Source: Candidatus Brocadia sinica JPN1 (GTDB lineage Bacteria > Planctomycetota > Brocadiia > Brocadiales > Brocadiaceae). From it: DNA of 64,000 nt. The position numbers and the translations under genes were made by a program. The stretch lies in assembly GCF_000949635.1 (NCBI RefSeq), contig NZ_BAFN01000001.1, forward strand, positions 1,674,001 to 1,738,000. Reading direction: 5' to 3'. Numbering within the stretch: the stretch's first letter is position 1; each line of letters begins with the position of its first letter. Below, piece after piece: positions 36,675 to 56,077 of this stretch. The notes under the pieces are model-generated. The model was given only the letters and a program-made list of their open reading frames with translations. It had not been told where the DNA came from and made no database searches.

Positions 36675-37574
36675 TCAGAACCTTTTCATGAAATTTTGCA
36701 ATCTCCGAAAATTGTTTGTTCCCAAAAAGGACAACAAGAGGAGAAAAAAGGATCGTATTTCTGCCGGATAGATTCTCATCGCTGATAAAAAACATTTCCG
36801 GCCCTTCTTTGTATTTTCACTACTGCAATAAAGCACACCAAGACGAATATGATATTGACTGTAAGCTTTACGATTAGAAGAAAAGATGTTGCTGTATCTT
36901 TCCAACATTAATTCAATTCCCCTTATTCTTGTCTTAGCATTAGCGGAAATATTGTTTTTGTGAATATGGTACTTTACCAGGGGTTTTTCAATATATTCAA
37001 AGTAAAATTCTTTCGAAATGCGAATCCACAGATCATAATCTGTCGGGTAGGGTATCATTTTATCAAACAACCCTATTCTTTCAAAGCATATCCTCCGTAT
37101 CATAACTGTCGATGGCACTCCAACATAGTTTTTGATAAGAAGAAACTTATAAATATCGCCTTTTTTGGAAGGACGCCTTTTTTTTAATATTTTCTGACTT
37201 GTTAAGTCTACTTCAACATAGCCACTATACACCACACCAACCCTTGTTGGGCTATTTTTTAATAAATCAACCTGTAATGTCAATTTCTCTGGCAGCCATT
37301 CATCATCATCATCTAAAAATGCAATATATTCAGAATCGGAATTCATTATTCCGGTATTCCTAGCCTCTGCTTCGCCTTTGTTTATTTCGTTACGTATATA
37401 TTTTATTCTCTTGTTATTCAGTTTACTCACAATCTCCGGGGTATTATCCCCGGAACAATCATCTACCACGATTATCTCAAAATCCTGAAATGTTTGATTT
37501 AAAACACTTGTAATTGCAGAGTACAGAAGCTCTGAACGATTATGGGTAGGAATAATTACACTAACTTTAGACAC
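36675..37574 (-). CDS. Glycosyltransferase family 2
   Basis: The 299-residue GT-A enzyme probably starts at GTG 37574 (preceded by GGGGAG). VSVIIPTHNRSELLYSAITS and IIVVDDCSGDNTPEIV bind the nucleotide, FLDDDDEWLPEKL holds the DxD metal motif, and IPYPTDYDLWIRIS is the acceptor-side ED/D-like block. It is the last gene of the right-hand minus-strand glycan locus, facing the K+ channel gene. There is no membrane anchor. It is probably one sugar-addition step in the exported glycan. Confidence 0.88.
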   Translation of the reverse strand: MSKVSVIIPTHNRSELLYSAITSVLNQTFQDFEIIVVDDCSGDNTPEIVSKLNNKRIKYIRNEINKGEAEARNTGIMNSDSEYIAFLDDDDEWLPEKLTLQVDLLKNSPTRVGVVYSGYVEVDLTSQKILKKRRPSKKGDIYKFLLIKNYVGVPSTVMIRRICFERIGLFDKMIPYPTDYDLWIRISKEFYFEYIEKPLVKYHIHKNNISANAKTRIRGIELMLERYSNIFSSNRKAYSQYHIRLGVLYCSSENTKKGRKCFLSAMRIYPAEIRSFFLLLLSFLGTNNFRRLQNFMKRF

Positions 37575-37727
37575 TTGTAGCTCCCCCCGGAGGGTCCCCC
37601 TTATAAATTCTTCTCACGTAATAATATCGGAAGATTTACAAAAATATTATAAAATAATAATGCAACTGAAGACGCAAGACAAATTTTAGAAAATAGTAAC
37701 TAAATGGAATATGAGATGTATCGGTCT

Positions 37728-40406: not shown

Positions 40407-40518
40407 AGTAGTATTCGAATTGTTTTTAGTAATTTTTGCATGCAGCTTCTCTTGGATTTGGCAAGTTCTATGCCAAACATTGATTTAGGTCGATATTGGT
40501 CGCTTGTCAAGTAGGATA

Positions 40519-43110
40519 TTACATCTGATGAACATCGAGCTTTGCGATGAAACTTTGCAAGTTATCGGAATCCCCCGCCTCGATACGGGGCAGTGCAAGC
40601 AGGGAATCATCCAGTTTGCTTATTTCTGCCTGGCAGGTCAGGCCAAAGATGTAACCACATGCCCCTATGAGATGTTGAACTATTCTGTTTGTCGCCCCGT
40701 ATGGGTATGCAAAGGCCTTGACTGCCACCCCAAGTTCATGACCTAAAGCTGCTCGTGAACAAGCTCCTTCGCGAACAATTTCCTCGTGGGTGAGTTTTGT
40801 AAGTGAACGATGACTGGCCGAATGGGAGCCGAATTCTATACCTTCTGTCTGAAGGGTGCGAATTTCATCCCATCCGAGCAGGGGGATCTGCCCGCCGTAT
40901 TCGCTATCACGTTTACGCAATGTTTCCACCCAGTCAGTGACAATAAAAATTGTCGCCGAGAAGCCATAACGGCGTAAAATTGGCCATGCGAAAGTTAAGA
41001 AATCCAGGTAGCCGTTATCAAAAGTAAGAAGAACCGCCCGCCTAGGAAGTGGTTTTTTCTCAAGCATCGCCACACCCCAATCCTCCAGTCTGATGCTATA
41101 GAATCCGGCACTATGCAGGCTGGAGATATGTTCTTCAAATGTTTCCGGAGTTATAGAGTCGTCTGCTGTTGCTGGCGACGTAGCAGGACAAATCCTGTGA
41201 TACAAAAGGATCGGAAGTTGATTGGTCACAACGTTTTCATTACTGTGATTCTGATAGGTGTCTGTTGCTTTTTCCCGTTGAATCTTACGAGAAATATTTG
41301 GGTTAAAAAAGGGTTCTTGTTTTTGCAACAATTGATGCCAAATGAGATCGGGTGAGTGAATGATGCGTTTAGTGTGTCCATTTTGAGACGATGCCCGGAC
41401 TATTGGTTCTCCATTGGCCAGTGCTGCATCAATGATATCTTTTTCAGTAACGGCCGGAAGTGTTGTCCATCTGGAAGCACTCGTTCCAATCAATCCATAT
41501 GTGTTCCGGCCGAGTATCAGGTTGTATGTGTCAGGAATCAGTGTTTTACAGGCAGCATAGTCAAGCGCACGAATGTTATTTCCGAATGTAAATAGAGAAT
41601 AGCCGTCTTTGGAAAATCGGTTTACGGTTGCTGCCGATTGGGAAAGTCGGTCCCGAAGGGACAGGGGATCTGTGACAGACTTACCAAGAATCCCTTCTCG
41701 GACCGCAACACGGCACAATTCAAAACCACTTGCTTTTGTAAGTATTGCACGTAATTCTTCGGCACGGAGTATATCACCTGTAATGGGAATGGTTACGGCT
41801 CCGACTGCAGCTCCGCCCACGGTTAACAGTACGTTTATTTCAGGACATGAAACCCTCATATCAGAAATATCTTTACTGACTTCAACTATCAGCCAGCTAT
41901 CATTAACACAGTACCTTGTGGCTTTTTTTGAACCTTCAAATAAAAAGATTTGTGGCCGGTACGTGAATTTCTCTTGTGGCTTATTGCCTCTGTCCAGATA
42001 AAAATGTTCTAGAGATACATTAGGGCAGCCCCACACCTCCTGTAAGAATATTACCCAGCCAATCAGATCATGTAATTGTATCCATAGAGCACGCTCGTCT
42101 TTTGGAAGACCGCCAACAAGGCATAATTTTTCTTTGTAAATGGATAAGCCAGCAGGTTCATGCTTAACACGGATATTTCGGTAGATTGTGCGTTCAAAAA
42201 AATGACGAACAATAGGCCAAGCAAAATCGGCTGCAATAGCATCTGAAAGGACATATGCGGGAACGAGTCCATCGCAAATGGGCAACTCAAGTGTGCCGAT
42301 GTAGGACCCCATAAATTCGATTTGGCATAAGAGACGCCTTGCGGAAGTGTGAGGGACAACATTGTTTACTGGCTCCGTAACCTCAATCTTGATTATATCG
42401 GCGTCCTCTACAGTCATTGGCAATGTCTCCGCTGCAATTTTCTTAGAATTCTTTTGATAAATTTTTGGATGGACAATTGCGAGTTGAGAGATATTCGTAT
42501 TTTCCAGTTCTCTTTCAAGGAGAGGATAATTGCCGATGCAATTATCTTTAACAAAGATAAAAATATTTTGAGCATAATAGGGTTCTACATTTTCATTGTC
42601 CCATATTGCTTTCCGTAAACAATCAATTATTAAATATTTATTCTTTTTAAAGTGTTTTAGCCAGTAATGAGGCCATTGTTCATTTACGTGACATACTCCT
42701 CCTTGAAAAGGGATAGCTGCTGAAAAAAGAATAACTTGTCCAAGTTTTGTAACTGAATCTATAAAAATTTCCGCACATTCAGCGGGGAGATGTTCCGCAA
42801 CTTCCAGGGACACAACTAAGTCAAATTCCCTGTTTAATTGAAGAGGCTTTGTGAGGTCAAACGGCAGGAATTCTTCCTGGGGAATTTGCAACATATTTTT
42901 CTTTATATAATCACCATCAATTCCTAGGCATTCTGTGATGCCAAATTCCTTAAAGACAGTTAACCAAGTTCCTAAGCCGCAACCGACATCAACGATACTT
43001 TTAGGATGAATAAATCCAAGAAGCAAAGGTATAATTTCCCTTGCCGACCTTTTCGAGGTCTCTTTTTGAATTCTGTAAAAATCTTCTTTATATAGTTTAT
43101 TCATCGGCAT
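40519..43110 (-). CDS. Methyltransferase - accessory modules - NodB polysaccharide deacetylase fusion
   Basis: The 863-residue multidomain protein has a SAM methyltransferase (about 15-200: SIVDVGCGLGTWLTVFKEFG, FDLVVSLEVAEHLP). The module of about 70 residues shared with the neighbour appears twice (about 250-320, IEFMGSYIGTLELPICDG; 420-490, LTVGGAAVGAVTIPITG). A NodB deacetylase domain (628-863) has LLYHRI, TFDNGYLD and the HSASH metal motif. In NodB the motif is normally TFDDG; here the second, metal-binding Asp is Asn699, so activity may be changed. The fusion suggests methylation and deacetylation of one glycan. It has no signal peptide, which is odd for a deacetylase. Confidence 0.85.
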   Translation of the reverse strand: MPMNKLYKEDFYRIQKETSKRSAREIIPLLLGFIHPKSIVDVGCGLGTWLTVFKEFGITECLGIDGDYIKKNMLQIPQEEFLPFDLTKPLQLNREFDLVVSLEVAEHLPAECAEIFIDSVTKLGQVILFSAAIPFQGGVCHVNEQWPHYWLKHFKKNKYLIIDCLRKAIWDNENVEPYYAQNIFIFVKDNCIGNYPLLERELENTNISQLAIVHPKIYQKNSKKIAAETLPMTVEDADIIKIEVTEPVNNVVPHTSARRLLCQIEFMGSYIGTLELPICDGLVPAYVLSDAIAADFAWPIVRHFFERTIYRNIRVKHEPAGLSIYKEKLCLVGGLPKDERALWIQLHDLIGWVIFLQEVWGCPNVSLEHFYLDRGNKPQEKFTYRPQIFLFEGSKKATRYCVNDSWLIVEVSKDISDMRVSCPEINVLLTVGGAAVGAVTIPITGDILRAEELRAILTKASGFELCRVAVREGILGKSVTDPLSLRDRLSQSAATVNRFSKDGYSLFTFGNNIRALDYAACKTLIPDTYNLILGRNTYGLIGTSASRWTTLPAVTEKDIIDAALANGEPIVRASSQNGHTKRIIHSPDLIWHQLLQKQEPFFNPNISRKIQREKATDTYQNHSNENVVTNQLPILLYHRICPATSPATADDSITPETFEEHISSLHSAGFYSIRLEDWGVAMLEKKPLPRRAVLLTFDNGYLDFLTFAWPILRRYGFSATIFIVTDWVETLRKRDSEYGGQIPLLGWDEIRTLQTEGIEFGSHSASHRSLTKLTHEEIVREGACSRAALGHELGVAVKAFAYPYGATNRIVQHLIGACGYIFGLTCQAEISKLDDSLLALPRIEAGDSDNLQSFIAKLDVHQM

Positions 43111-43192: not shown

Positions 43193-44029
43193 TTAATCCT
43201 CAAAGAATTCTTCCCATGGGGTATTTTTAAATTCTTTCTTCAATTCAAAATAATTTGTGATTATTTTAGAAAGCGGTTGTCTTGTCTGTCTATATGTGGA
43301 TGGTTTAAGGATTTTATAATTTACACCTAAAAACTCTTGCATGCGTCTCATTTCGTTTTCGTAATTACGGGATAGATTTTCATAGAAAACGTCAATCTTG
43401 TGATGGTTTTCAAAATAGATATCGTATTGTTTTTTAATCTCTTGCGCCCAGGTAAATTCATGAAGACATTCTTCATAGCCAAGCGAAACAGAAAAATCTT
43501 CTTCCTCGGAACCGGTAATATCAGTCCATTTATTCGTTTTAAATGCCCTCTTAAGGGAGAGCAGGACTTTAAGGGTGTTATTCCTCTTTAGGTGAATTAT
43601 CTTTAAATCTTTTTGATTCTTTAAAAATGTCCAGACAGTTTTACGGGAATCGTTTTGTGCATGGTAATAGAATATTTTGAATCCCACTGCCCCTATTTGT
43701 TTTGGGAATTTTTTAAATACCTTTTCTTTTAAAAATCTATCCGGGTTATTTTGAATTAATGTTTTTAAGCTCCTAGATTGCAGATATTTATCATAATCGG
43801 GTAAATCCCATCCGATAGAATCGTATGAACGAAACAATTCCCCGAAAGTAACGATCTGATTATGGGAATTTAATAAACCACGGAGAAAGTTCGATCCGGA
43901 TCTTCCTCTTGTAAGAATAATAAATTTACAATAATCTGAGTGGCCATCACGTATTCCTAAAGTAAGGGCCAGGTTCTTTAAATGAAAACAAATTAAACCT
44001 TTTAGATTCAGGAGGCTTCCAACAGTCAT
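43193..44029 (-). CDS. Sulfotransferase family protein
   Basis: The 278-residue protein has the 5'-phosphosulfate-binding loop in FIILTRGRSGSNFLRGLL (R41-F48) and a second PAPS contact in IIHLKRNNTLKVLLSLKRAF. This pattern is that of the Stf0/NodH-like and HS-sulfotransferase superfamily. It would transfer sulfate from PAPS to a sugar hydroxyl. It follows a DUF6473-like gene, a pairing I recall from other polysaccharide loci. The DNA is markedly AT-rich compared with the genes to its left, suggesting separate acquisition. Confidence 0.82.
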   Translation of the reverse strand: MTVGSLLNLKGLICFHLKNLALTLGIRDGHSDYCKFIILTRGRSGSNFLRGLLNSHNQIVTFGELFRSYDSIGWDLPDYDKYLQSRSLKTLIQNNPDRFLKEKVFKKFPKQIGAVGFKIFYYHAQNDSRKTVWTFLKNQKDLKIIHLKRNNTLKVLLSLKRAFKTNKWTDITGSEEEDFSVSLGYEECLHEFTWAQEIKKQYDIYFENHHKIDVFYENLSRNYENEMRRMQEFLGVNYKILKPSTYRQTRQPLSKIITNYFELKKEFKNTPWEEFFED

Positions 44030-44045
44030 TTTTTATTGTAAGGAG

Positions 44046-44993
44046 CTATAAAATTATTGTATTTTTTCTGTATAGCCATTTACTAAAACTAAAAGACACA
44101 CTGGATCTTTTCTGTAGTCCAATTGGATGCAGATACCTTTTACACACCTTTTCAAGGGTATTTGCTGCAGCTACATGCATCTGGGGCGAAGGATAGTACC
44201 AATTCTTATCCCATACACCACCCCACGGATCTTCAATGGTGATTGGCTTGCCTGTAAACCGGTTAATAAGTGTATGTGGTATCCCTTTCCTTGATACACA
44301 TTCAACATATTCATCACAATGTTTTCGTATTAGATTAATCATATGTGTATTAACCAATTGGGGAAATTCTCCAAATAATGTGTGAATGTCTTTGTATTTT
44401 TCCTTATAGTGTGGCTTTCTGGTGGAGAACCAGAACAATATTTTGGGTGGGGTAATTTCTTCCAGGAGTTCTCTATAGTTATCAACCCAATTATTTCTGG
44501 TTTCAGTAATTATTGTTTTTATATAATCTTTATCGTGCTGTTTTAATAACTCTCTAAAAGCATCATCGCATCCAATCGGAGTACCATCGGATACTCTCGT
44601 GTAAAATCCCAGACCTTTACTGGTAAATAATGAATTACTCTCAGATCTTCCCGACATAATTTGTATGATGGCAAACCTGGCACTGTTGATATATTTTAAT
44701 AGTTTATCGTTGTCTTTTGAGAAAAACGATGGTCCTGCACCTCCCCGGCCAAGATTTACTGTTTGTATACCAAGCCTCTTTTGCAGTAAGGTTGGATATG
44801 GTTCTTCACAAAAACGTCCAAAAGTTTGTGCTGCACCAATAGATACGAAGTATTTGCCCTCTTCTAATTTTTGAGGTTTAGGTCCTCTGAATAGCAATTG
44901 AGTATTGGTTTGACGATCAATTATTTCCGGGTCCAAACAATACATTTGATAATCAATTACTTTCCAATCCTGGTTTGTGTACCCTTCAGCCAC
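44046..44993 (-). CDS. DUF6473-like protein
   Basis: The 315-residue protein is read from GTG 44993; an internal ATG at residue 17 is possible. It shows IDYQMYCLDPEIID, FRGPKPQKLEEGKYFVSIG, AAQTFGRFCEEPYP, VNLGRGGAGPSFF and IQIMSGRSESN, which I recognise as the pattern of the DUF6473 family. The GAAQTFGRF and LGRGGAG loops look like an SGNH-hydrolase-type fold, but a complete Ser-His-Asp set is not certain. No biochemical role is known to me. The gene precedes a sulfotransferase by 16 bases, so a role in sulfated-glycan decoration is inferred. Confidence 0.65.
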   Translation of the reverse strand: MAEGYTNQDWKVIDYQMYCLDPEIIDRQTNTQLLFRGPKPQKLEEGKYFVSIGAAQTFGRFCEEPYPTLLQKRLGIQTVNLGRGGAGPSFFSKDNDKLLKYINSARFAIIQIMSGRSESNSLFTSKGLGFYTRVSDGTPIGCDDAFRELLKQHDKDYIKTIITETRNNWVDNYRELLEEITPPKILFWFSTRKPHYKEKYKDIHTLFGEFPQLVNTHMINLIRKHCDEYVECVSRKGIPHTLINRFTGKPITIEDPWGGVWDKNWYYPSPQMHVAAANTLEKVCKRYLHPIGLQKRSSVSFSFSKWLYRKNTIIL

Positions 44994-45046
44994 TGAGTCA
45001 GTCTCCCGTAACTTTACGTTTTTGTTTCTGTGTGTGTTTATAATTA

Positions 45047-46105
45047 TTATCTTCTCAATGCAATTTCCGTTAGATTTCCTAAGTGGACTAACGGTTCATT
45101 AAAGATTGTATCATTCAGAATGTCAATAAACTCATAATGACTTGGGTGCGTGGGAAAATGAACGGCCCTATTTCTAAATTCCTCTTCAGAGTATGTTCCG
45201 TAATTCACTAACTGGCTAAAATAAACGGTATCAAAATTAAAATACTTGCCAAGACGCACAAAATCAGGCATCTCTTTAAAGTTGTTTTTTTGAACAACCA
45301 TGCTTATGCCTACCCACTCTAAGGGACCGTTTTTACGAAGGGAGCTGATAAATTTGAGGTTTTCAAGAAGCCTTGCGAAACTCCCACCCCTACGATTGAT
45401 TGCATAAGTTTCCGGGTTTGCCGCATCAATTGAAATATCTGCGCTTTTGATAAGCTGTTGTATATCCTTTGCGATCGTATCCCACATTTTTACTGTCCAT
45501 AATTGCGCGTTTGTTTGTAAATGTATTTTATCAATATTCGGCATATCCTTTCTTTTCATAGTTTGCAGCCATTTTCTGAAAAAAGGACTGCCAAAAGGAT
45601 CACCTGATCCCGTAATGTGTAAATAGTTAGCATGTTTCATAGCCTCCTGTTGAATCTTGTGCTGGACTCTTAATATTTGTTTCTTGTTTTTCTTCTCTAT
45701 AATAATATTTATTCGACATGAAGGGCAGGATAGATTACAAGATTTATCATATGTACAAATAATTTGTTTCGGTCCATAGGGTAGGAGTGTGAGTTCATTT
45801 TCTATTACGGTTTTTAAATCATTGTCTTTAACATCTTCAATTTTTTCAACCGGCCCGGATACCGTTTGTAAAAAAGCGCATCTGGAGCGATTGCAATAGG
45901 TAAATGAACCATCCAAAATTGAGCGCCGTATTTCTTGTGCCTTTTCACCATTCCATATCTCTTCAATCGACTGATCTTGTAAATTTCCTATGGATGTATC
46001 AAGCCATGCCGGACAGCACAGAAATACCTCCCCGATTTTTTTTAAATGGGTAATCTCAAACCATGTAAAAGGTTTCGAGCAAAACAAATGTCTGTTTTCT
46101 GACAT
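45047..46105 (-). CDS. Radical SAM protein with N-terminal SPASM-like cluster domain
   Basis: The 352-residue protein starts at ATG 46105 after AAGGG. The radical SAM motif CNLSCPSC (CxxxCxxC) sits at about residues 122-129, unusually late. Before it lies a SPASM-like segment (LFCSKPFTWFEI, EVFLCCPAWLDTSIGNL, SIEEIWNGEKAQEIR, YCNRSRCAF), normally found after the barrel. ITGSGDPFGSPFFRKWL is the SAM-binding strand. The substrate is unknown. It sits 6 bases from a methyltransferase gene in an AT-rich block with the sulfotransferase pair. Confidence 0.82.
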   Translation of the reverse strand: MSENRHLFCSKPFTWFEITHLKKIGEVFLCCPAWLDTSIGNLQDQSIEEIWNGEKAQEIRRSILDGSFTYCNRSRCAFLQTVSGPVEKIEDVKDNDLKTVIENELTLLPYGPKQIICTYDKSCNLSCPSCRINIIIEKKNKKQILRVQHKIQQEAMKHANYLHITGSGDPFGSPFFRKWLQTMKRKDMPNIDKIHLQTNAQLWTVKMWDTIAKDIQQLIKSADISIDAANPETYAINRRGGSFARLLENLKFISSLRKNGPLEWVGISMVVQKNNFKEMPDFVRLGKYFNFDTVYFSQLVNYGTYSEEEFRNRAVHFPTHPSHYEFIDILNDTIFNEPLVHLGNLTEIALRR

Positions 46106-46110
46106 GATAT

Positions 46111-46791
46111 TTACCCTTTTAATTTTTTTAACCTTTTTATCAGATGCGAAAGTTTCAACTTGTTGATAATTGATTCTTTGTTGCGTTTATTTATATCATA
46201 ACAATAGGGTAAATTAATTTTCTGGCCGGTCCAATCATTAACATTTTTTGGTTCCTGTAATTTTTTAAAGAAAGCAGTATTATTCATGATTTTTATTAAT
46301 TCCCATTCTTCCTCTATACTTAAAAAATCATATAATATTTTAACTGATGGTATCTTAAAGTCGTCTACGCATACAATGCCTCCCGGCTTTAACTTGAATG
46401 CTGTGTAATACCAATCAATAATCGGTATAGGGAAACGATGTGCTCCGTCAATGAATATAAGATCTAATTCTGATTGTATCAATCCATTCTGTGGAAGGAT
46501 TTTATCTGAACTTTCAATAATGAAAGTTATATTTTCTGTGAGGCCTAATTTTGCGCAATATTGTTGTACCCGTTCAGCTTCTCCCAGATCAGGCGTAATA
46601 CAAATATGTTTTGTATTTACTATAGAGAAGATAACGGTTGTATGCCCACAACCAGTTTCCAATGTTGACATGCTGGGTGTTAACATGCTGTAAAGAAAGC
46701 GTAAGGTGTCAGGGTGAATAGCCCAGCTTGTAGAGACACCTTCATGCAGATGGAATTGCGGGTTGTCTTTAATCAATCTTTCTAGTAACAT
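46111..46791 (-). CDS. Class I SAM-dependent methyltransferase
   Basis: The 226-residue protein has MSTLETGCGHTTVIFSIV as motif I (the E/DxGxG loop), ITPDLGEAERVQQYC, LDLIFIDGAHRFPIPIIDWY as the catalytic-site strand and GGIVCVDDFKIPSV. This layout resembles the Methyltransf_24 group found in glycan clusters, which O-methylate sugars. It is translated just before the SPASM-type radical SAM gene and after a GT4 gene, within an AT-rich block. The acceptor is unknown. Confidence 0.8.
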   Translation of the reverse strand: MLLERLIKDNPQFHLHEGVSTSWAIHPDTLRFLYSMLTPSMSTLETGCGHTTVIFSIVNTKHICITPDLGEAERVQQYCAKLGLTENITFIIESSDKILPQNGLIQSELDLIFIDGAHRFPIPIIDWYYTAFKLKPGGIVCVDDFKIPSVKILYDFLSIEEEWELIKIMNNTAFFKKLQEPKNVNDWTGQKINLPYCYDINKRNKESIINKLKLSHLIKRLKKLKG

Positions 46792-46815
46792 ATTTACTCC
46801 TGATTTATTATGAAA

Positions 46816-47877
46816 TTAACCATTACCTGCCAGTTTTGAATAGACTGCTTCATACAGCGGAGCAATAGTGTGCCATGCTAGCTCTTCCGCCCTTTTACGG
46901 GCTTTTTGTCCCATAGTAACACGTTCATCCTGGTTATGAAATAAGTGCAGGAGGGCTTCTGATAATTGTTCGGGGTTGTTGTTTTTTATCAAGATGGCTT
47001 CGCTTCCTGGCAAATAGGCCTTTACCGATGGCAGGCTGGTTGACACCACAGGCAATCCGCATGCAATCCCTTCAAGAAGGGCATTATTTGCAGTAGACTG
47101 CACTAATGGAAGGAATAATACATCTGATTGTTGATACAATTTCAGTAATTGAGCATCATCTATGTTTTTGTATATGGTGATGTTTTTTAAACCTTCCACT
47201 TCTCCCGCCTGTGAAGATACCACATTAAATCCTATTTCATGAAAATCTTTCAGCTTCTCTGCTACAAGTCTAACTGCCTTGAAATCCCGTAAATAGTGTC
47301 CTACGGTAATGCACTGAAATTTCCCCTTCGTTTTTGGAATATCCCGGGGTTTAAAATAGTCAGTATCTATACCATGAAGAATTAAATGGATTTTATCATG
47401 GTCTATAAATTCCCTAAAATAGGATACTTGCTCTGGCGATACGACGGTAATGCAATCGTGCTTACGGATGACGTCCTTAATAATAAGTGAATCGAGTATT
47501 TCTGGTGGTTGATGATAGGTTGCAACGACCCTTGGTCGTATTTTACGAAGCCGCTTCAGTAATCCGGGAAGAAACTGTGCTGAATGTTCACCGTCAAGAT
47601 AATGTATGATATCCACCTTTCTAAAATAGCAGTGGGCTAGTGCTTTTATTTCAGCAGTCAGATCACTAAGTTTATACCATTTCATACCGCGTTTTTGAAT
47701 AATGTTACGTAAGTATTTCCGTATTAATCTATTCTGTACAGGAAAATCTTCGTCATTGTCTGGTATCTGTTTTACTTTTATTTTATAATTAATTATATCA
47801 ATGTATTTTAAAAATTGATTTATACCAGAATGAGTGCACCAATGAGGATAACGAGTATGGATCAAATATATATGCAT
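46816..47877 (-). CDS. Glycosyltransferase family 4
   Basis: ATG 47877 follows GAAGGTAG and lies 7 bases after the stop of the GT2 gene; a longer open frame into that gene is rejected. The 353-residue GT-B enzyme has HIYLIHTRYPHWCTHSGINQ, VDIIHYLDGEHSAQFLPGLL, FQCITVGHYLRDFKAVRLV and a C-terminal TANNALLEGIACGLPVVST with the usual second Glu. The N-terminal GG loop is replaced by HSGINQFL. A sugar transfer in the cytoplasm before export by Wzm/Wzt is likely. Confidence 0.85.
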   Translation of the reverse strand: MHIYLIHTRYPHWCTHSGINQFLKYIDIINYKIKVKQIPDNDEDFPVQNRLIRKYLRNIIQKRGMKWYKLSDLTAEIKALAHCYFRKVDIIHYLDGEHSAQFLPGLLKRLRKIRPRVVATYHQPPEILDSLIIKDVIRKHDCITVVSPEQVSYFREFIDHDKIHLILHGIDTDYFKPRDIPKTKGKFQCITVGHYLRDFKAVRLVAEKLKDFHEIGFNVVSSQAGEVEGLKNITIYKNIDDAQLLKLYQQSDVLFLPLVQSTANNALLEGIACGLPVVSTSLPSVKAYLPGSEAILIKNNNPEQLSEALLHLFHNQDERVTMGQKARKRAEELAWHTIAPLYEAVYSKLAGNG

Positions 47878-47884
47878 AATTATT

Positions 47885-48817
47885 CTACCTTCGCCCGGCT
47901 CCAAGCAAACCTGCTATATGCCCAACCGTAATTAATGCGAAGCATTTTTCGGTAAATCGCTTTGGGTCCTTTCTCGGCAATATGAGATTTATAATTGTTC
48001 GTGGAGATTGCAATAAAGAATATAGTTTAATAGCAGCGCAATTTATACGTTCTGCTATTGATGGTGTTTCTTCAATTAATTGCATGATAGCATCGGAAAT
48101 CCCCTGCCAATAATATCTGCAAGTAAACCAGCGTTGGTTAAGTCGTGACGTGGGTGTAAGATGATGAATGGCTATCTCCGGATGGTAAAAACAAGTATAT
48201 CCTGCCTTCTGGATTTGCTTTTCAAGAAAAACATCGCCTCCCGACAAAAGGTGTTTGCCCTTACGGTCAAGGTCATGGGTAAATCCACCGACATGTTTAA
48301 GAACTGCGGTTGGAAAGGCAATATTGGCGCCAACGAGCCATTTCCGGTTCAGGTCGGTTAAATTATGTGGTATGTCAGACCAGTTAATAATCGTGAGACT
48401 GGTTAAAAGTTCATCCGATATCCAGCTGGGTCTGGGGGCTTCCCAAATGGGATTTACCTTTCCCCCTACACAGCCTGGTCTTGGTTTTACCGTTTCAAAT
48501 ACCTCCAAGATTTTGCTGAGCCAGGTTGGACAAGCAATGGCGTCGTCATCCAGGTAAGCAACATATTTTCCCCGCGCATTCTGCCAACCAGTATTCCGCG
48601 CATAAGAGAGACCCAGCTTCGATTCATAGAGGTATCTGATGTTCTTGTTTAAAGTCTTTTTTATTACTTCTTCGGTGGAATCCGTAGAGCAATTATCTAC
48701 TATAATAATTTCGTACGTGTCTTTATGCAGATTTTGATCAAGTAAGCTTTGAAGTGCTTTCACTAGATATTCGGCACGGTTGTGTGTACATATTATTGCA
48801 GAAATAAGAATATTCAT
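47885..48817 (-). CDS. Glycosyltransferase family 2
   Basis: The 310-residue GT-A enzyme has ISAIICTHNRAEYLVKALQS, EIIIVDNCSTDSTEEVI, YLDDDAIACPTWLSKILEV (DxD), GANIAFPTAVLKHVGGF and GGDVFLEKQIQKAGYTCFYH (acceptor-side ED-type motif). Length and motif spacing fit inverting GT2 enzymes acting on polysaccharide repeats. A short hydrophobic C-terminal stretch may give membrane contact. It lies 21 bases after the GT4-GT2 fusion gene. Confidence 0.88.
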   Translation of the reverse strand: MNILISAIICTHNRAEYLVKALQSLLDQNLHKDTYEIIIVDNCSTDSTEEVIKKTLNKNIRYLYESKLGLSYARNTGWQNARGKYVAYLDDDAIACPTWLSKILEVFETVKPRPGCVGGKVNPIWEAPRPSWISDELLTSLTIINWSDIPHNLTDLNRKWLVGANIAFPTAVLKHVGGFTHDLDRKGKHLLSGGDVFLEKQIQKAGYTCFYHPEIAIHHLTPTSRLNQRWFTCRYYWQGISDAIMQLIEETPSIAERINCAAIKLYSLLQSPRTIINLILPRKDPKRFTEKCFALITVGHIAGLLGAGRR

Positions 48818-48838
48818 TTTACTTGTTTTTCATGTTAA

Positions 48839-51106
48839 TTATATGAGAAATAAAATTTGACAACCAGATAGGAATATGCGTGTTGTCTTATTTTTTACTT
48901 TTTTAAAAAACAGCAAAGCCTTCCTTAAAGTTTCTTTATGAAAAAAGTAAAGTAACATATGTTCCAGAATACATTGAAATAATTTATTTTGTGTTGAATT
49001 TGCAATTACTGAATTTGCCATGTAAGCCTGAGCAAGAAGGGCAATTTCCTTAGCATCGCGGTTAATAAGGTCTGGAAATCTTTCAAAAAGTTTCCTCTGC
49101 GTTCTTCCACAAACTCCTGTATTCGCAAAATGCAACGTTGATTCTTTTCTCTGTCTAAGTTCTCCCAATATTTCCGGAATAGTAGCAGCAGCCCATCCGG
49201 CAGCCATCACTGCATTGAAAAGGTCCCACGTGTCATATTCCTCACTTATTGTGGAGCGAAAGTAACCGGCTTCTCGCAATGACTGTGTGCGAACGACACC
49301 AAAGGGAATCGCTTCATTTGAAAGCCACTGATAAGGGAAGGATGGGCAGAAGTTCGTCAAAATTTTATCCTTAACCCCAATATACTGAGCCCAGCAGGAG
49401 ACAAGGCCAACTTCTGGAGATCTTTTAAGAATAGATTCACAGGTGGCTATAAAGTTAGGTTTTAACCTGTCATGGGCATTGAGGAAAGAGAAACCGAGGG
49501 GTTTCGTTCCTGAATTAAGTATTGCTTCAATGCCAGTATTCTTAGCCGGCGTTACATCGCCATTTTTTTTGAGAATAACATGCCATCCTCCCTGTTGCGC
49601 AATAGCTAGGGTTTTCAATGCCTGATTTTGTGTAGATCTATCATCTACAATAATTACAGCAGCGGGTTTTTGTGTTTGCTGTTCAATGCTTTGCAGGCAT
49701 TCAGTAAGAAATTGTGCTGTATTAAAGCAGGTAACAACAATGGCAATTCCTTTTTCGGAATTATTTTGCAAAACCTTATGCGTTTGCCTCTCATAAAGGG
49801 GTCTTGTAGACCATGATAAATTTACCGGCAGGTTTAAAGATTGTTTTGGTCCTTGATTGACGATTTGACTGCGGAAGTCTAAATGCCTTTCCAGGATTTT
49901 CTTGTTATCGCACATCTGGCGGATGGATGCTGATGCATTACTCCCCATTTCAGCAATTTTTTTGGGAGGTGTTTCTAATGCCCGTTCTAGGGCTTCTGCA
50001 AGGCCATTATTTTCAGTTTTTTTTGCCAGCCAACCCGTTTTGCCGTCTTCGATCATTTCGACCATTCCTCCCTCACGCGATGCAAGAACCGGTAGTCCTG
50101 AACACATCGCTTCAACGCAACTATAAGGAAAATTTTCCCAACGGGATGGTACTACGGCAATACGTGCTTTAGCCAGAAATTGCGGAAGCAAAGAACGTTC
50201 TTGGTGGCCCAGAAAGTGAAACCTTGTCTTTAACTCGTCGGGGATGCGACGCATTACAAAATCTTCACCACTCATGTTCTTTGTGGCAAGAATATTGGCG
50301 CCAATAAACTCAAAATGAACATCCGGGTATTTATGGGCAACCCCTGCTGCAGCATCGATCCATTCTATTATTCCCTTGCGTCGCTCAAGTCTTCCCATAT
50401 AACAAATTTTTCCGTATTCCCATGTGTCTTTATTCCGTTCGAGGATGGGATTGTCTCCAATTGGTAATGGAATAACCCGAATGCTCCCTGCCTGCAATCC
50501 GTAATGCTCTTCTGCTTGGTTGGCTAAATAGCGACTGGGGCAAAGGAGGGCATCGGCCGTCGTGATACTAAAGTCCTCAAGCCTTTTTATTTCCAAAAGA
50601 GAAGGAGAATAAATATCCCAATCATTGTGTTGGGTGATAAATTCAATTGGAGAATGTAAATGAATAAAACAGGGGGGACGCCTTTTTGGTCCTAATCCCA
50701 TGGCCCGGCGAAGTTGAAAAAAATATAAAGGCGCCTCATAATCCTGTGATTCAATTATATCGATCCCTTCCTGTTCAATAAGTTTCTCTGTAAGAAGGCT
50801 AGCTTGCCAGGAAAAAGATTGGGAGTGAAGACTCCATTTAAAAAGATGATTCACTTTCTTAAATTTGATTAAGGAATTTGATTCGTGAGTCATAAAAGAT
50901 TTACAGTTCATATAGGGAAGACGATGGATAATTAACCGCCCGTTGCACTGTTCTTCAGTCTGCCTATTGGAGCCTTCATAAAATTTACCGATTACATGTA
51001 CTGTTTCTCCCTTTTCGGCAAGTAACCGGGCAATATGGACTCCATACGTCCCAATACCGCCTCCTGGCGCCGGTGGATATTCGCTACAAACTATAAGATG
51101 TTTCAT
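48839..51106 (-). CDS. GT4-GT2 bifunctional glycosyltransferase
   Basis: The 755-residue protein has an N-terminal GT4 domain (1-410: IVCSEYPPAPGGGIGTYGVH, ICYMGRLERRKGIIEWIDAA, WENFPYSCVEAMCSGLPVLA). A GT2 domain follows (about 445-690: IAIVVTCFNTAQFLTECLQS, AVIIVDDRSTQ, FLNAHDRLKPNF). In the GT2 part the usual DxD is AHD, so metal binding may be weak. The C-terminal 60 residues are hydrophobic and basic. The fusion would add two sugars in order. The next gene upstream, 51116-53506, has a comparable two-part layout. Confidence 0.85.
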   Translation of the reverse strand: MKHLIVCSEYPPAPGGGIGTYGVHIARLLAEKGETVHVIGKFYEGSNRQTEEQCNGRLIIHRLPYMNCKSFMTHESNSLIKFKKVNHLFKWSLHSQSFSWQASLLTEKLIEQEGIDIIESQDYEAPLYFFQLRRAMGLGPKRRPPCFIHLHSPIEFITQHNDWDIYSPSLLEIKRLEDFSITTADALLCPSRYLANQAEEHYGLQAGSIRVIPLPIGDNPILERNKDTWEYGKICYMGRLERRKGIIEWIDAAAGVAHKYPDVHFEFIGANILATKNMSGEDFVMRRIPDELKTRFHFLGHQERSLLPQFLAKARIAVVPSRWENFPYSCVEAMCSGLPVLASREGGMVEMIEDGKTGWLAKKTENNGLAEALERALETPPKKIAEMGSNASASIRQMCDNKKILERHLDFRSQIVNQGPKQSLNLPVNLSWSTRPLYERQTHKVLQNNSEKGIAIVVTCFNTAQFLTECLQSIEQQTQKPAAVIIVDDRSTQNQALKTLAIAQQGGWHVILKKNGDVTPAKNTGIEAILNSGTKPLGFSFLNAHDRLKPNFIATCESILKRSPEVGLVSCWAQYIGVKDKILTNFCPSFPYQWLSNEAIPFGVVRTQSLREAGYFRSTISEEYDTWDLFNAVMAAGWAAATIPEILGELRQRKESTLHFANTGVCGRTQRKLFERFPDLINRDAKEIALLAQAYMANSVIANSTQNKLFQCILEHMLLYFFHKETLRKALLFFKKVKNKTTRIFLSGCQILFLI

Positions 51107-51115
51107 AATGGTTCG

Positions 51116-53506
51116 CTAATTTGTCAATAAATGTGTAATAATCCTTCCTGTTTTACGTAAAAATATTTTAAGTAAAGGAAGAGTATGGTTTGAATTGTTA
51201 TAGGGTGCAGATAGGGTTTGTTCAGTATAAACATATTGTTTCAATTGATTTTCTAATTGCATGGCAATTTCAACGGTAAATTTGGATACCGTTTCACGAT
51301 GGGTATTCAACATAAGTTCCCTCATAACCTGATTCTGCACAGAGGTCATGCTTCGGTAAAGTGAATCCCTGCGAACCCTGTATCTTGTAAGGTGCATGGG
51401 AATTGTTATAATGGGCCATCCTGATGCAAGCATTCGAACGCCTAATTCCCAATCTTCATAGTTATAACGCTGGCGAGTATCGTAACTACCGAGGCCCTGC
51501 AAAAGTTCTGTGCGTGTCAGGCAGGGAACGATCACACTGTTCTCAATAAATAGAAAGGGCAGTTCCGTCTGCGGAGCGTTCCAGAAGCCATCAGGGATAT
51601 CATTCCCAAAAATAAAGGCCCAGGCGGCAACACCACCTAAACGTGGATATTTATCGAGTATCTGAAGGGCAATCCTGTAAAAAGGAGGCTCAATCATATC
51701 GTCTCCGTCAAGGAAGGAAATAAATTCTCCGTTTGCTGCTTCAAGTCCAGTATTTCTTGCCGCTGCCAGTCCCTGGTTTTGCTTGTGAATAACTGTAAGG
51801 GGAAGACCTTTTAAAGATGCCTCTTTTTGAAGTTCCCTTATATACGAGTGGGTTTCTTTTCCGTGTGACCCGTCGTTAATCAGAAGAACCTCATCAGGCT
51901 GACGTTCAGATGCCCAAACACTTGTAATGGCATCCTTTATCAAAGACCCCATTTCATAACAGGTTACGACAACCGTTAGTGTTCCCTTCCTGGTATGAGG
52001 TTTGGGCTCCGGTAATAAAGGTGGTTTATCCGCCTCTGCATGTGCACGGAGAGAAATGCGGCGATCAAGGAACATAAGAGCTACCCGTGACAGATTCTGT
52101 GATTGATGGGGAGAATGAAGAAGTTGTTCTAAGGCTGCAGTAGTTTTTGTGATCAGGCATTGCCGCGTATTTCCACAGTGCGCGCTGATAATACGCTTAC
52201 ACAGTTCCCGTCTTATCTGATCAAGTTTTTCAACATCGGTTACCATGATTTTCCCCATGAAATCTGCCACATTCTCAGGAGTAGGATCTCCACGAATTAA
52301 AATCTCTTCAGGAAGGTTTTCTCCCGGCGCCAATCCTTCTGCAGCCGCTGGAGAGAGTAACACAAAGGACCCTTTGGCAAGTTCATGCCAGACATTTGGG
52401 AGATGATCAAAAAAACTTGGGTAGAGACGCACAGGAAAGATTTGATATGGATGTTGTGGATATTCTCTTCTCCATTCCCATTGTTGTTCCCGTACCAGAT
52501 CCTTTACAAATCCTCGGGATGACCAATAGTCAACAAAATCTCTGGGTTTCATAGGGGCAAAGACCATGGACGGTCCTGCACTGATTACCGGATCTTTAAA
52601 TGACACTCCTTTGTTTGTTAAAAGAGTAACTGCGTCAAGCGCCGTTAGTACTCCCGAAGAGGCTTGCTGAGGTTCGTAGAGAAAAAATCCAGGATATTTG
52701 CGGGTATCGGTGGTGTATGCTGCAGACGCATGAGAGATTGCATCAAGTATTTGTTTATCAATAAAACGTGGTGCAAAAACAGGGGGTGAAGATTCGGGCA
52801 ATCTGCCGTCAATGGCTATCTTATTTCCTCTGGGTCCAAAAACTAGCACAAGATCTGCTAAAGCCAATGACACATCTTCCATCTGTCGCCGGATGATTGC
52901 ATGGCGGATCCATATGCCTTCCTGATTAGCCATCTGTCGGTTAACGGATTTATCGGTAACTGCAACTACGAAAGGCACATCTACCGTATCGGGAACCTTG
53001 GTTGCCTTTGCCATCTGTGAGACATATCCGAGACCGCCCCACATTGGCAGGATAATAACCTGAAATGGGTCTTTTTTGTAAAGTACCTGAAGTTCTTTAT
53101 TCAGACAATAAGAAACAAAAGATAATAGCCCCCCATCATTGATTAATCCGTGAGAACGTGGGCTTAAGCCTTTTTCATCGAACGGAAGCCAATATTCAGG
53201 GTCCCTCGCAGGAATTGGAATCCGTTTGACCCTTTCTGATCTGAAAGGATCCGGCACAGTGTCAAAGTTTGGTTGTAATACTGGACGTGTTGCCGGAGTC
53301 GGTACCCAGGTTTTCCCTGTTTCGTAATGGTACCACTCACTCCAGCAAAGAATAGTGATTCGGCAGTCAAGATACTCGGAGATTTCTTCAACCGGAAGAC
53401 CTAATCCTCTCATGGATATTCTTTCTTCTGTCTCATCTGAAAGAAATTCACAGTACCCCTCATACCCTTCTATAATAACAATATGATGTCTGCCTTTTTT
53501 GTCCAT
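51116..53506 (-). CDS. Two-domain protein: divergent GT-B-like N-terminus and GT2 C-terminus
   Basis: The 796-residue protein has a C-terminal GT2 domain (about 505-740) with LTVVVTCYEMGSLIKDAITS, EVLLINDGSHGKETHSYI, FLDGDDMIEPPFYRIAL (DxD) and YEDWELGVRMLASG. Residues 1-490 are not a standard family I can name. The stretches VIILPMWGGLGYVSQMAKA, ALADLVLVFGPRG and a late FVLLSPAAAEGLAPGENLPE resemble a GT-B fold with a degenerate donor site. By position it parallels the GT4-GT2 fusion downstream. The GT2 half is probably active; the role of the first half is open. Confidence 0.78.
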   Translation of the reverse strand: MDKKGRHHIVIIEGYEGYCEFLSDETEERISMRGLGLPVEEISEYLDCRITILCWSEWYHYETGKTWVPTPATRPVLQPNFDTVPDPFRSERVKRIPIPARDPEYWLPFDEKGLSPRSHGLINDGGLLSFVSYCLNKELQVLYKKDPFQVIILPMWGGLGYVSQMAKATKVPDTVDVPFVVAVTDKSVNRQMANQEGIWIRHAIIRRQMEDVSLALADLVLVFGPRGNKIAIDGRLPESSPPVFAPRFIDKQILDAISHASAAYTTDTRKYPGFFLYEPQQASSGVLTALDAVTLLTNKGVSFKDPVISAGPSMVFAPMKPRDFVDYWSSRGFVKDLVREQQWEWRREYPQHPYQIFPVRLYPSFFDHLPNVWHELAKGSFVLLSPAAAEGLAPGENLPEEILIRGDPTPENVADFMGKIMVTDVEKLDQIRRELCKRIISAHCGNTRQCLITKTTAALEQLLHSPHQSQNLSRVALMFLDRRISLRAHAEADKPPLLPEPKPHTRKGTLTVVVTCYEMGSLIKDAITSVWASERQPDEVLLINDGSHGKETHSYIRELQKEASLKGLPLTVIHKQNQGLAAARNTGLEAANGEFISFLDGDDMIEPPFYRIALQILDKYPRLGGVAAWAFIFGNDIPDGFWNAPQTELPFLFIENSVIVPCLTRTELLQGLGSYDTRQRYNYEDWELGVRMLASGWPIITIPMHLTRYRVRRDSLYRSMTSVQNQVMRELMLNTHRETVSKFTVEIAMQLENQLKQYVYTEQTLSAPYNNSNHTLPLLKIFLRKTGRIITHLLTN

Positions 53507-53565: not shown

Positions 53566-54858
53566 TTATTTTCTCTGTGTTGCGATATTTGTTTCTATTG
53601 TTTGATTTTGAATATTTAAAATAGACCATACCGGACGTAGTGAAATAACGCCCGTATCTCCAGAGTTTGCTCCATTTTTACTTAAAATATGTAAGGGGTG
53701 CATTTGCCAGTGATAATCATAGATATAATCCCAATCAAGAGGATAGAGACCGACGTTGATGTAATACATGCCGGGAAGCAGAGGTAATTCTGGCAAATGG
53801 CAAATAAAATTGCCGTGCTGGTCTATATGCCCAAAGGTTGTGCATGCAGAGAGAATATAGGTTTCAAAACACTTGATATCTGCCTCATTGTATATACCGA
53901 AGATAACTGCAATATCGGGCATGGGTTTTGTGATGTTATATTCAAGGCTAATCGTCAGGCTATCGCCACTGCTTATTGTATCAGTAGTTTTGCCCTGTGT
54001 GTCATATAAATAGACAGCGCATATCTCCGCTTCCTGAGTTCCTAAACGTTTGCCATATTGAGTTACTGTATTAGGTTGATTTGTTTTACCAAAAAGCTTC
54101 TCGGCCCGTTTTTCTGTCCGCTGACGCATAAGATCGTTGTAATAACGAATAGCGCTTTCCGGATCCCCTTGCATTACTATACGCCCTTCCTCCAGTACAA
54201 GCACTTCATCACATAAACTCCTGATCTGGCCAGAATCATGCGATGTCAGGATTGTGGTTTTATCTGATGCTCGAAAAGCTGCCAATCGTTCAAGGCATTT
54301 CTTCTGAAAACGGGAATCGCCAACCGCCAGCACTTCATCAATGATCAAAACGTCAGGATCGAAATGGATGGTTGTGGCAAAGGCAAGCCTCAAATACATG
54401 CCGTTAGAGTAAGTTCTAACCGGCTGATCAATGAATTCTTCCAGTTCAGCAAAGGCAACAATTTCTTCCTCCCTTGCCAGCACCTGGCGTCTTGTAAGGC
54501 CGCTCAGGATGCCCCCCGTCATAAGATTTTCTCGACCGGTCATCTCAGGATGGAATCCACTTCCCAGTTCAAGCAATCCACTAACTTGACCTACACGACG
54601 GATACATCCGGTGGTAGGTCTTCCCAGACCGCACAGTAAACGCAGTAAGGTGCTTTTTCCTGCACCGTTATGACCAACAATGCCCAGCGCCCGTCCCTGT
54701 TCCACAGAAAAAGTGACATCACGCAGCGCCCAAAAGTCATTGTCTCTGTTGTAACGGCCTGTAAACCGTCTGATTATTGACTCTTTGAGGGTAACCGGAC
54801 GATTGCGTTGAATCCGGTAGCGTTTTGAGACAGAGTTCACTGTTAGAACTGCAGACAT
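53566..54858 (-). CDS. wzt: Wzt-type ABC transporter ATPase with C-terminal carbohydrate-binding domain
   Basis: The 430-residue protein has Walker A GHNGAGKST (62-70), the signature-type YSNGMYLRLAFA and Walker B VLIIDEVLAVGDS, followed by a switch His in ILTSHD. Residues 275-420 form the beta-sandwich of Wzt proteins that recognise the finished glycan's terminal residue (SGDSLTISLEYNI, GNFICHLPELPLLPGMYYIN). It powers export of a lipid-linked polysaccharide with Wzm (54987-55751). Such C-terminal domains are usually specific to a chain-terminating methyl or phosphate group; methyltransferases in this operon could provide one. Confidence 0.92.
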   Translation of the reverse strand: MSAVLTVNSVSKRYRIQRNRPVTLKESIIRRFTGRYNRDNDFWALRDVTFSVEQGRALGIVGHNGAGKSTLLRLLCGLGRPTTGCIRRVGQVSGLLELGSGFHPEMTGRENLMTGGILSGLTRRQVLAREEEIVAFAELEEFIDQPVRTYSNGMYLRLAFATTIHFDPDVLIIDEVLAVGDSRFQKKCLERLAAFRASDKTTILTSHDSGQIRSLCDEVLVLEEGRIVMQGDPESAIRYYNDLMRQRTEKRAEKLFGKTNQPNTVTQYGKRLGTQEAEICAVYLYDTQGKTTDTISSGDSLTISLEYNITKPMPDIAVIFGIYNEADIKCFETYILSACTTFGHIDQHGNFICHLPELPLLPGMYYINVGLYPLDWDYIYDYHWQMHPLHILSKNGANSGDTGVISLRPVWSILNIQNQTIETNIATQRK

Positions 54859-54986: not shown

Positions 54987-55751
54987 CTAGATGGTATCAA
55001 TAATATCATGAAGAAAAAACCTGTAAAGAAGGTAACCAGAGACGCATACGAAGATACTTGTTGTGCCCGCAAACAGGAGCGATCTCCATTCAGGGAACGT
55101 ACCGTAAAAAAAAATCGCTCGGTAGCCTTGTATCAGCACCGCAATCGGGCTAAACATGTATAAAATACGGAAATTTTCACTGACTGCCTGCGGCTGGTAA
55201 AAAACTGGTGTCATGTAAAAGAGAAGCATAAGTACTATGCTCATAATGTGCTGCACATCACGATAAAAGACGTTTAGCATAGCGATGATCAGGCTTAGGC
55301 CAACTATTAATACACCCTGAATCAATATCAGCAATGGAAGAATCAGAAGGGCCAATGTCATAGTTTTATCATAGATGGCTAACATAACAAAAAGTATTGG
55401 CAGGACTACTAAATAGTTTAGCATGTTTGACAAGGTGTTGGTAATTATAAGGGTTGCTGGTGTAAAATTAGGCCTCCGAACCAAACCACGATTGTTGATC
55501 AAAAGACTACCAGATGAACTAAGACACGTACTAAACCATGTCCACGGTAGTAACGCACTGAAAACGAAAGCCGGGTAAGCATCAATGTTTAGCGGAACAA
55601 CTTTCTGGAAGAGAAAAACCAACACCAGCAATTGAGCTAAGGGGAGCATGGGTGACCATAGTACGCCCAGAACCGAACCCTTATAGCGCACAGCAAAATC
55701 GCAACGCACGAGGTGCCGTATCAGATCAAAATTGTAACTTAATGAGTTCAT
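54987..55751 (-). CDS. wzm: Wzm-type ABC-2 transporter permease
   Basis: The 254-residue protein has six hydrophobic segments and the ABC-2 polysaccharide-exporter pattern LIRHLVRCDFAVRYKGSVLG and VLWSPMLPLAQLLVL at the N-terminus. VLLFYMTPVFYQPQAV occurs before the last helices. ATG 55751 is preceded by GGAGTGAGGA. It is the first gene of the right-hand glycan locus, downstream of a GEMM-type riboswitch and terminator, and forms the channel for the Wzt ATPase 128 bases later. Confidence 0.92.
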   Translation of the reverse strand: MNSLSYNFDLIRHLVRCDFAVRYKGSVLGVLWSPMLPLAQLLVLVFLFQKVVPLNIDAYPAFVFSALLPWTWFSTCLSSSGSLLINNRGLVRRPNFTPATLIITNTLSNMLNYLVVLPILFVMLAIYDKTMTLALLILPLLILIQGVLIVGLSLIIAMLNVFYRDVQHIMSIVLMLLFYMTPVFYQPQAVSENFRILYMFSPIAVLIQGYRAIFFYGTFPEWRSLLFAGTTSIFVCVSGYLLYRFFLHDIIDTI

Positions 55752-55897
55752 ATGATAAATATCCTCACTCCATGCTGAAATATGTTCTTTTGTACTGCCG
55801 GCAAGATTTAAGCCTCCGAAAGGTAACCTCTCGACAATTTCTTAATAATTGGCACTCATAGAGATAAAGTTATCTCAAAAATGAAGCTTTGAACGGC

Positions 55898-55954
55898 AAA
55901 AAAAAGCCTTACTGCAAAAATGTTTATTCGATAAACATCTTCGGCAGTAAGGCT
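55898..55954 (-). terminator. Intrinsic terminator in the wzm leader (riboswitch expression platform)
   Basis: On the minus strand the arm AGCCTTACTGC (55954-55944) pairs perfectly with GCAGTAAGGCT (55915-55905). An inner 7-bp stem, TGTTTAT/ATAAACA, encloses a three-base loop. A run of eight U (55905-55898) follows at once. It lies about 150 bases upstream of wzm and its 5' arm overlaps the 3' part of the predicted aptamer. It therefore looks like a ligand-controlled terminator rather than the end of the upstream gene, though it may serve for both. Confidence 0.88.
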
Positions 55955-56045
55955 ATCTTTCTCGCGTTACTTCCTTGTAACTTAAAGACCCATTTACTTT
56001 GCGCCCCCTGATCGCTCAGGGTTTGCCTTTATCGGATTGTGAAGA
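55938..56045 (-). ncRNA. GEMM-I (c-di-GMP-I) riboswitch aptamer
   Basis: Read on the minus strand, the leader has GGCAAACC (56027-56020), a stem CCUGA-GCGA-UCAGG with a GNRA tetraloop (56020-56007) and GCGCAAAG (56004-55997). A second stem-loop UCUUU...AAAGA lies around GUUAC/GUAAC, then GAUAGCC and GCCGAAG. The outer strands UCUUC (56045-56041) and GAAGA (55942-55938) can pair as P1. This order is the conserved core of c-di-GMP-I riboswitches. The base equivalent to Vc2 G20 is G, which favours c-di-GMP over cGAMP. The 3' part is shared with the terminator arm, so ligand binding would favour read-through into wzm. Confidence 0.82.
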
Positions 56046-56047
56046 GC

Positions 56048-56077
56048 ATTTTATTTCACAGATTACCCTTAAGTCAA
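56048..56077 (-). promoter_or_regulatory. Sigma-70-like promoter for the riboswitch-wzm-wzt operon
   Basis: TTGACT (56077-56072) and TAAAAT (56053-56048) are 18 bases apart, immediately after the stop of the upstream gene (56090). Transcription would begin near 56041, at the 5' edge of the predicted aptamer. This gives the right-hand glycan locus its own regulated start. Confidence 0.65.

Follow-up and report, generated by a model that had tools for sequence, protein, structure and literature searches.

A predicted c-di-GMP ON riboswitch ahead of a Wzm/Wzt glycan operon is one of about 55 near-identical cassettes in Candidatus Brocadia

Results

A structured leader precedes a Wzm/Wzt-type locus

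We analysed a minus-strand leader, together with the genes behind it, in a 64 kb stretch of Ca. Brocadia DNA (the window), and the coordinates of the features are collected in Table 1. In the direction of transcription a promoter-like sequence, an aptamer and an intrinsic terminator are followed by genes for an ABC-2 permease and an ATPase with a Wzt_C domain, which on the Pfam matches PF01061, PF00005 and PF14524 make up a Wzm/Wzt ABC glycan exporter. The initial annotation had placed wzm-wzt and glycosyltransferases downstream of the element, and this is what we found, with wzm starting at 55751, wzt at 54858 and the glycosyltransferase genes on the same strand. The nearest named relatives of Wzm come from Ca. 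Brocadia AMX1 (82%), Ca. Brocadia BIN37 (72%) and Ca. Jettenia ecosi (70%), identifying the window as DNA of an anammox planctomycete.

Table 1. Features of the leader and of the genes behind it (window positions)
Feature	Position	Strand	Basis
Sigma-70-like promoter: -35 TTGACT, 18 nt, -10 TAAAAT	56048..56077	minus	motif match
GEMM-I / c-di-GMP-I aptamer	55939..56036	minus	RF03167 and RF01051 covariance models
Intrinsic terminator	55898..55954	minus	pairing and folding energy
Leader 3' of the terminator: hairpin GAGATAACTTTATCTC and GAGG ribosome-binding-like site	55752..55897	minus	sequence reading
wzm-like ABC-2 permease	54987..55751	minus	PF01061 (ABC2_membrane), E 1.7e-13
wzt-like ATPase with carbohydrate-binding Wzt_C domain	53566..54858	minus	PF00005, PF14524
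Glycosyltransferases (796, 755, 310, 362 aa), methyltransferase, radical SAM-SPASM, DUF6473, sulfotransferase	43193..53506	minus	gaps -20 to 53 nt
Methyltransferase/polysaccharide deacetylase fusion and two glycosyltransferases	36675..43110	minus	gaps 82-153 nt

The genes of the operon core are separated by -20 to 59 nt, wzm and wzt lying 128 nt apart, and the core is likely to be one transcript. Whether this transcript extends past the sulfotransferase gene is uncertain, the gaps that follow leaving room for other promoters; the last genes of Table 1 probably form the end of the operon and would then be co-transcribed with it. The riboswitch is predicted to control, as an ON switch, wzm-wzt and an operon of roughly 19 kb for a putative glycan. 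In its permease, Wzt_C ATPase and glycosyltransferases the locus resembles Wzm/Wzt loci for O-antigen or capsule export, from which it differs by its placement behind a second-messenger riboswitch.

The promoter named in the initial annotation was found, with a putative start site near 56041, and is taken here with reservation: the single match is at chance level (50 promoter-like matches found, 48.9 expected), yet an exact TTGACA is found in the 80 nt that precede 24 of the 58 genome copies of the aptamer as compared to 1.3 in shuffled sequences. The hairpin GAGATAACTTTATCTC between terminator and wzm start (55860-55880) is partly kept in the BIN37 orthologue.

The aptamer retains the c-di-GMP contact positions

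When all Rfam models were scored against the window, the aptamer was the sole match at gathering level within the 64 kb. RF03167 (c-di-GMP-I-GGC) scored 61.4 bits at 56036-55939 (gathering 59, E 4.6e-12 over the window) and RF01051 scored 55.1 bits on the same sequence (G000:C1:1729940-1730037; gathering 35). The covariance check proposed in the initial annotation thus came out in favour of the aptamer. Its P2 hairpin (56021-56006) is closed by a GCGA loop of the GNRA type, and each of the six P2 positions is paired in 50-53 of 53 genome copies, with double (compensatory) changes that yield variants such as CCCUGA/UCAGGG, CCCAGA/UCUGGG and CCAUAA/UUGUGG. P1 of the window copy is weaker than the family consensus (ACAATCCG as compared to ACATNNCG).

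In the Vc2 aptamer c-di-GMP is contacted by G20, A47 and C92 (PMC4744006), and A47 was reported to be essential (PMC9049102). According to the RF03167 model alignment these positions correspond to 56027, 56000 and 55944 in the window, with the C44 position at 56003. As G20, A47 and C92 are all present, the comparison supports assignment to the canonical class-I c-di-GMP aptamers rather than to the GGC variant. The element shares with the Vc2 type of RF01051 an above-gathering score, the GNRA-looped P2, P3 and the G20/A47/C92 triplet, but has a long variable P3 loop and a terminator arm built into the 3' strand of P3.

Aptamer and terminator share one strand

The 5' arm of the terminator (AGCCUUACUGC, 55954-55944) is the 3' strand of aptamer P3, its last base being exactly C92, and pairs in 11 of 11 positions with the 3' arm (GCAGUAAGGCU, 55915-55905), with a U8 tract (55905-55898) directly after the stem. 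The terminator has a minimum free energy of -28.3 kcal/mol (z -9.2), and its apical stem overlaps the P1 3' strand as well. A simple terminator scan made no call here. Folding of growing prefixes resulted in P2 and P3 from about 55944 to 55916, with the terminator taking over from about 55908. The E value of the aptamer together with the z score of the terminator rules out a chance origin of the element.

Since the strand 55954-55944, including C92, is common to aptamer and terminator, the two folds are mutually exclusive, and as no intervening antiterminator is visible between them the ligand should permit transcription. In this scheme RNA polymerase would start near 56041 and transcribe the aptamer. 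Bound c-di-GMP would be recognized by G20 at one guanine and by C92 at the other with A47 stacked between them, and P3 and the junction would hold 55954-55944, making the 5' arm unavailable to the terminator, so that transcription would run on into the wzm-wzt, glycosyltransferase, sulfotransferase and deacetylase genes. In the absence of ligand 55915-55905 would capture 55954-55944 including C92, and transcription would stop at the U8 tract near 55898. The same logic has been measured for the Geobacter pilM ON switch, whose terminator ties up C75, the cytosine that pairs with the ligand and corresponds to C92 (PMC9262584); the window element is predicted to capture its cytosine likewise and differs in its ligand, pilM binding cGAMP and the window copy, with G20 kept, being predicted to bind c-di-GMP.

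What the initial annotation had read from the leader was borne out, each element lying where it had been placed: the minus-strand GEMM-I core with its GNRA-capped stem was recovered by both covariance models, the G20 equivalent is retained, the terminator overlapping the 3' part of the aptamer is perfect, and the proposed ON logic, in which ligand blocks termination, agrees at the level of sequence with the shared strand.

The cassette is repeated throughout the genome

The genome of the window has 55 matches above the RF01051 cutoff, near-identical cassettes of riboswitch and terminator, and we examined 58 matches as loci (L001-L063, G000:C1); a few of the 55 are copies in duplicated segments (13664/35985, 20403/42059, 485080/4008998). 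By pattern, G20 and A47 are both found in 55 of the 58 matches, another one has A at position 20, and the last two are degenerate. In 53 of 56 copies the overlapping terminator recurs, with a U-run and no fewer than 10 of the 11 base pairs. The proteins encoded 3' of the copies include Ig-domain, DUF11, beta-propeller, RHS and beta-helix proteins and amidases, besides a UTP-sugar uridylyltransferase, sigma-54 activators and a GGDEF-EAL protein. A crude signal-sequence rule marks 34 of the 55 downstream proteins as apparently exported, as compared to 4 of 39 control ORFs from the window. Seventeen GGDEF matches in the genome make c-di-GMP synthesis by the host plausible.

Several of the loci deviate from the common design. 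The one with A at the G20 position (L059, G000:C1:568048-568160, core GAGCAAAA), a change linked to cGAMP preference, precedes a gene for a 500-aa protein without Pfam match. A weak copy with intact terminator (L063, G000:C1:2104847-2104936, 33.6 bits) is located before the gene of a PAS-GGDEF-EAL protein, a position that suggests feedback on c-di-GMP turnover. L018, L054, L059 and L113 carry, immediately 5' of the genuine P3 3' strand, an extra partial copy of it (GACAGCCUUA-like), possibly a decoy or a duplication scar. L001, L005, L114, L116, L117 and L120 represent a second GEMM-I flavour with the 3' end GCCAGGUUGCC or similar, in which an overlapping terminator is not evident; several of them have a start codon close behind, which suggests translational control.

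Distribution of the cassettes and conservation before wzm

Ten other genomes of the genus Brocadia hold 18-45 copies and three Jettenia-like genomes 19-25, as compared to 0-5 in planctomycetes outside the order, the latter from a phylum-wide sampling of 294 genomes. The phylum-wide count scored no more than 14 candidates per genome and gives lower bounds for Brocadia; the range of 18-45 comes from the fuller count. Geobacter uraniireducens has about 30 copies. Our literature search, which lay mostly outside the subscription journals, found no work on riboswitches in anammox bacteria or planctomycetes. In a genome from another genus of the family (L124, G020:C1:2705406-2705485) the terminator is found 73 nt beyond the aptamer, with the P3 5' strand of the aptamer (GCCAUGGGUCUU) repeated in its 3' arm, an arrangement that suggests an OFF-switch design.

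The same leader is located before wzm in BIN37 (G003), where the gene neighbourhood is different and a U-A to U-G change leaves the 11-bp terminator stem intact. The window copy has its best match in the BIN37 riboswitch (score 101, 126 of 147 aligned columns), which is closer to it than any other copy in the genome of the window (score 94 at best, 121 of 143); this suggests that the riboswitch was inherited together with wzm. In the three Jettenia-like genomes and in J. ecosi an aptamer lies ahead of a glycosyltransferase-wzm-wzt cluster, and in two of these, whose leaders we read (L096, L106), the terminator stands apart from the aptamer at a more distal position. That the riboswitch is kept with every wzm orthologue was rejected, as none was found before wzm in three other Brocadia clusters (AMX1/G001, G002, G004). 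The coupling to wzm is conserved only partly, being shared with a single further Brocadia and, on another platform, with Jettenia.

Gene order in AMX1 is identical to that of the window (PALP, MutL, 374-aa protein, wzm). The AMX1 intergenic region (L095:7640-8060) is unrelated, and AMX1 wzm, at 82%, is not as well conserved as the next three to four genes (90-96%), which looks like the exchange of a segment.

Alternative readings

The class assignment of the initial annotation, GEMM-I (RF01051), stands on the canonical A47, but the top-scoring Rfam model is the c-di-GMP-I-GGC variant, RF03167, which also exceeds its gathering score and could indicate a different ligand. We read "GGC" as the 20/47/92 triplet, in agreement with the RF03167 consensus, which has G at the A47 equivalent (ACGCGAAg); the base at 56000 in the window is A, which 56 of the 58 genome matches also have at this position, and the same sequences are well over the RF01051 cutoff too. 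Membership in the variant class is therefore extremely improbable despite the score. A response to 3',3'-cGAMP, as in Geobacter, would fit the fold, which is identical, and the ON logic with overlapping terminator, which GEMM-Ib switches also use (PMC9262584). Preference for cGAMP is, however, accompanied by G20A (PMC6274999), and A at position 20 is found in a single genome copy only (C1:568048), the window retaining G at 56027. With G20 retained the element is probably not a cGAMP switch, a reading we regard as highly unlikely, and c-di-GMP is the predicted ligand.

The weaker P1, and the terminators that sit outside the aptamer in some related loci, would be compatible with an OFF switch or with a constitutive terminator beside a decayed aptamer, but every ligand contact is intact, the 5' arm of the terminator belongs to the aptamer itself and no antiterminator intervenes, leaving little room for this explanation. 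Somewhat more weight, though still slight, is due to the possibility that the riboswitch is real and wzm is driven by a promoter of its own further downstream. A promoter-like match in 9 of 12 positions overlaps the wzm start (55758-55731) and the orthologous clusters of AMX1, G002 and G004 lack a riboswitch; such matches, however, occur at chance frequency, and in the BIN37 orthologue a promoter-like sequence, the aptamer and the terminator are all retained before wzm despite different upstream genes. We consider the element very probably a canonical c-di-GMP riboswitch of class I that works as an ON switch at the level of transcription, and one member of a regulon of about 55 copies in Ca. 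Brocadia, most of them ahead of genes for exported proteins.

Discussion

The window molecule itself is of a known type, and its repetition in about 55 copies is more striking than the single copy. The direct coupling of c-di-GMP to the glycan locus proposed in the initial annotation is supported by an aptamer and terminator ahead of wzm-wzt, but the element is not special to this locus. The main interest lies in the expansion of c-di-GMP riboswitches in Brocadia and in their link to exported surface material.

The uncultured anammox bacteria grow in granules, and their aggregation has reportedly been linked to c-di-GMP (Guo et al. 2017, Water Res., as cited in PMC8851195). The predicted ON switches, spread over the genome ahead of genes for exported proteins and for a glycan exporter, make up a testable list of targets for the c-di-GMP signal, and AMX1, with the same gene order and no riboswitch, offers a natural comparison. 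It is an evenly balanced proposition that the roughly 55 cassettes control much of the surface proteome that Ca. Brocadia exports, together with one or more glycans exported by ABC transporters, in which case they would be among the largest single-class regulons and may constitute an RNA switch for anammox aggregation.
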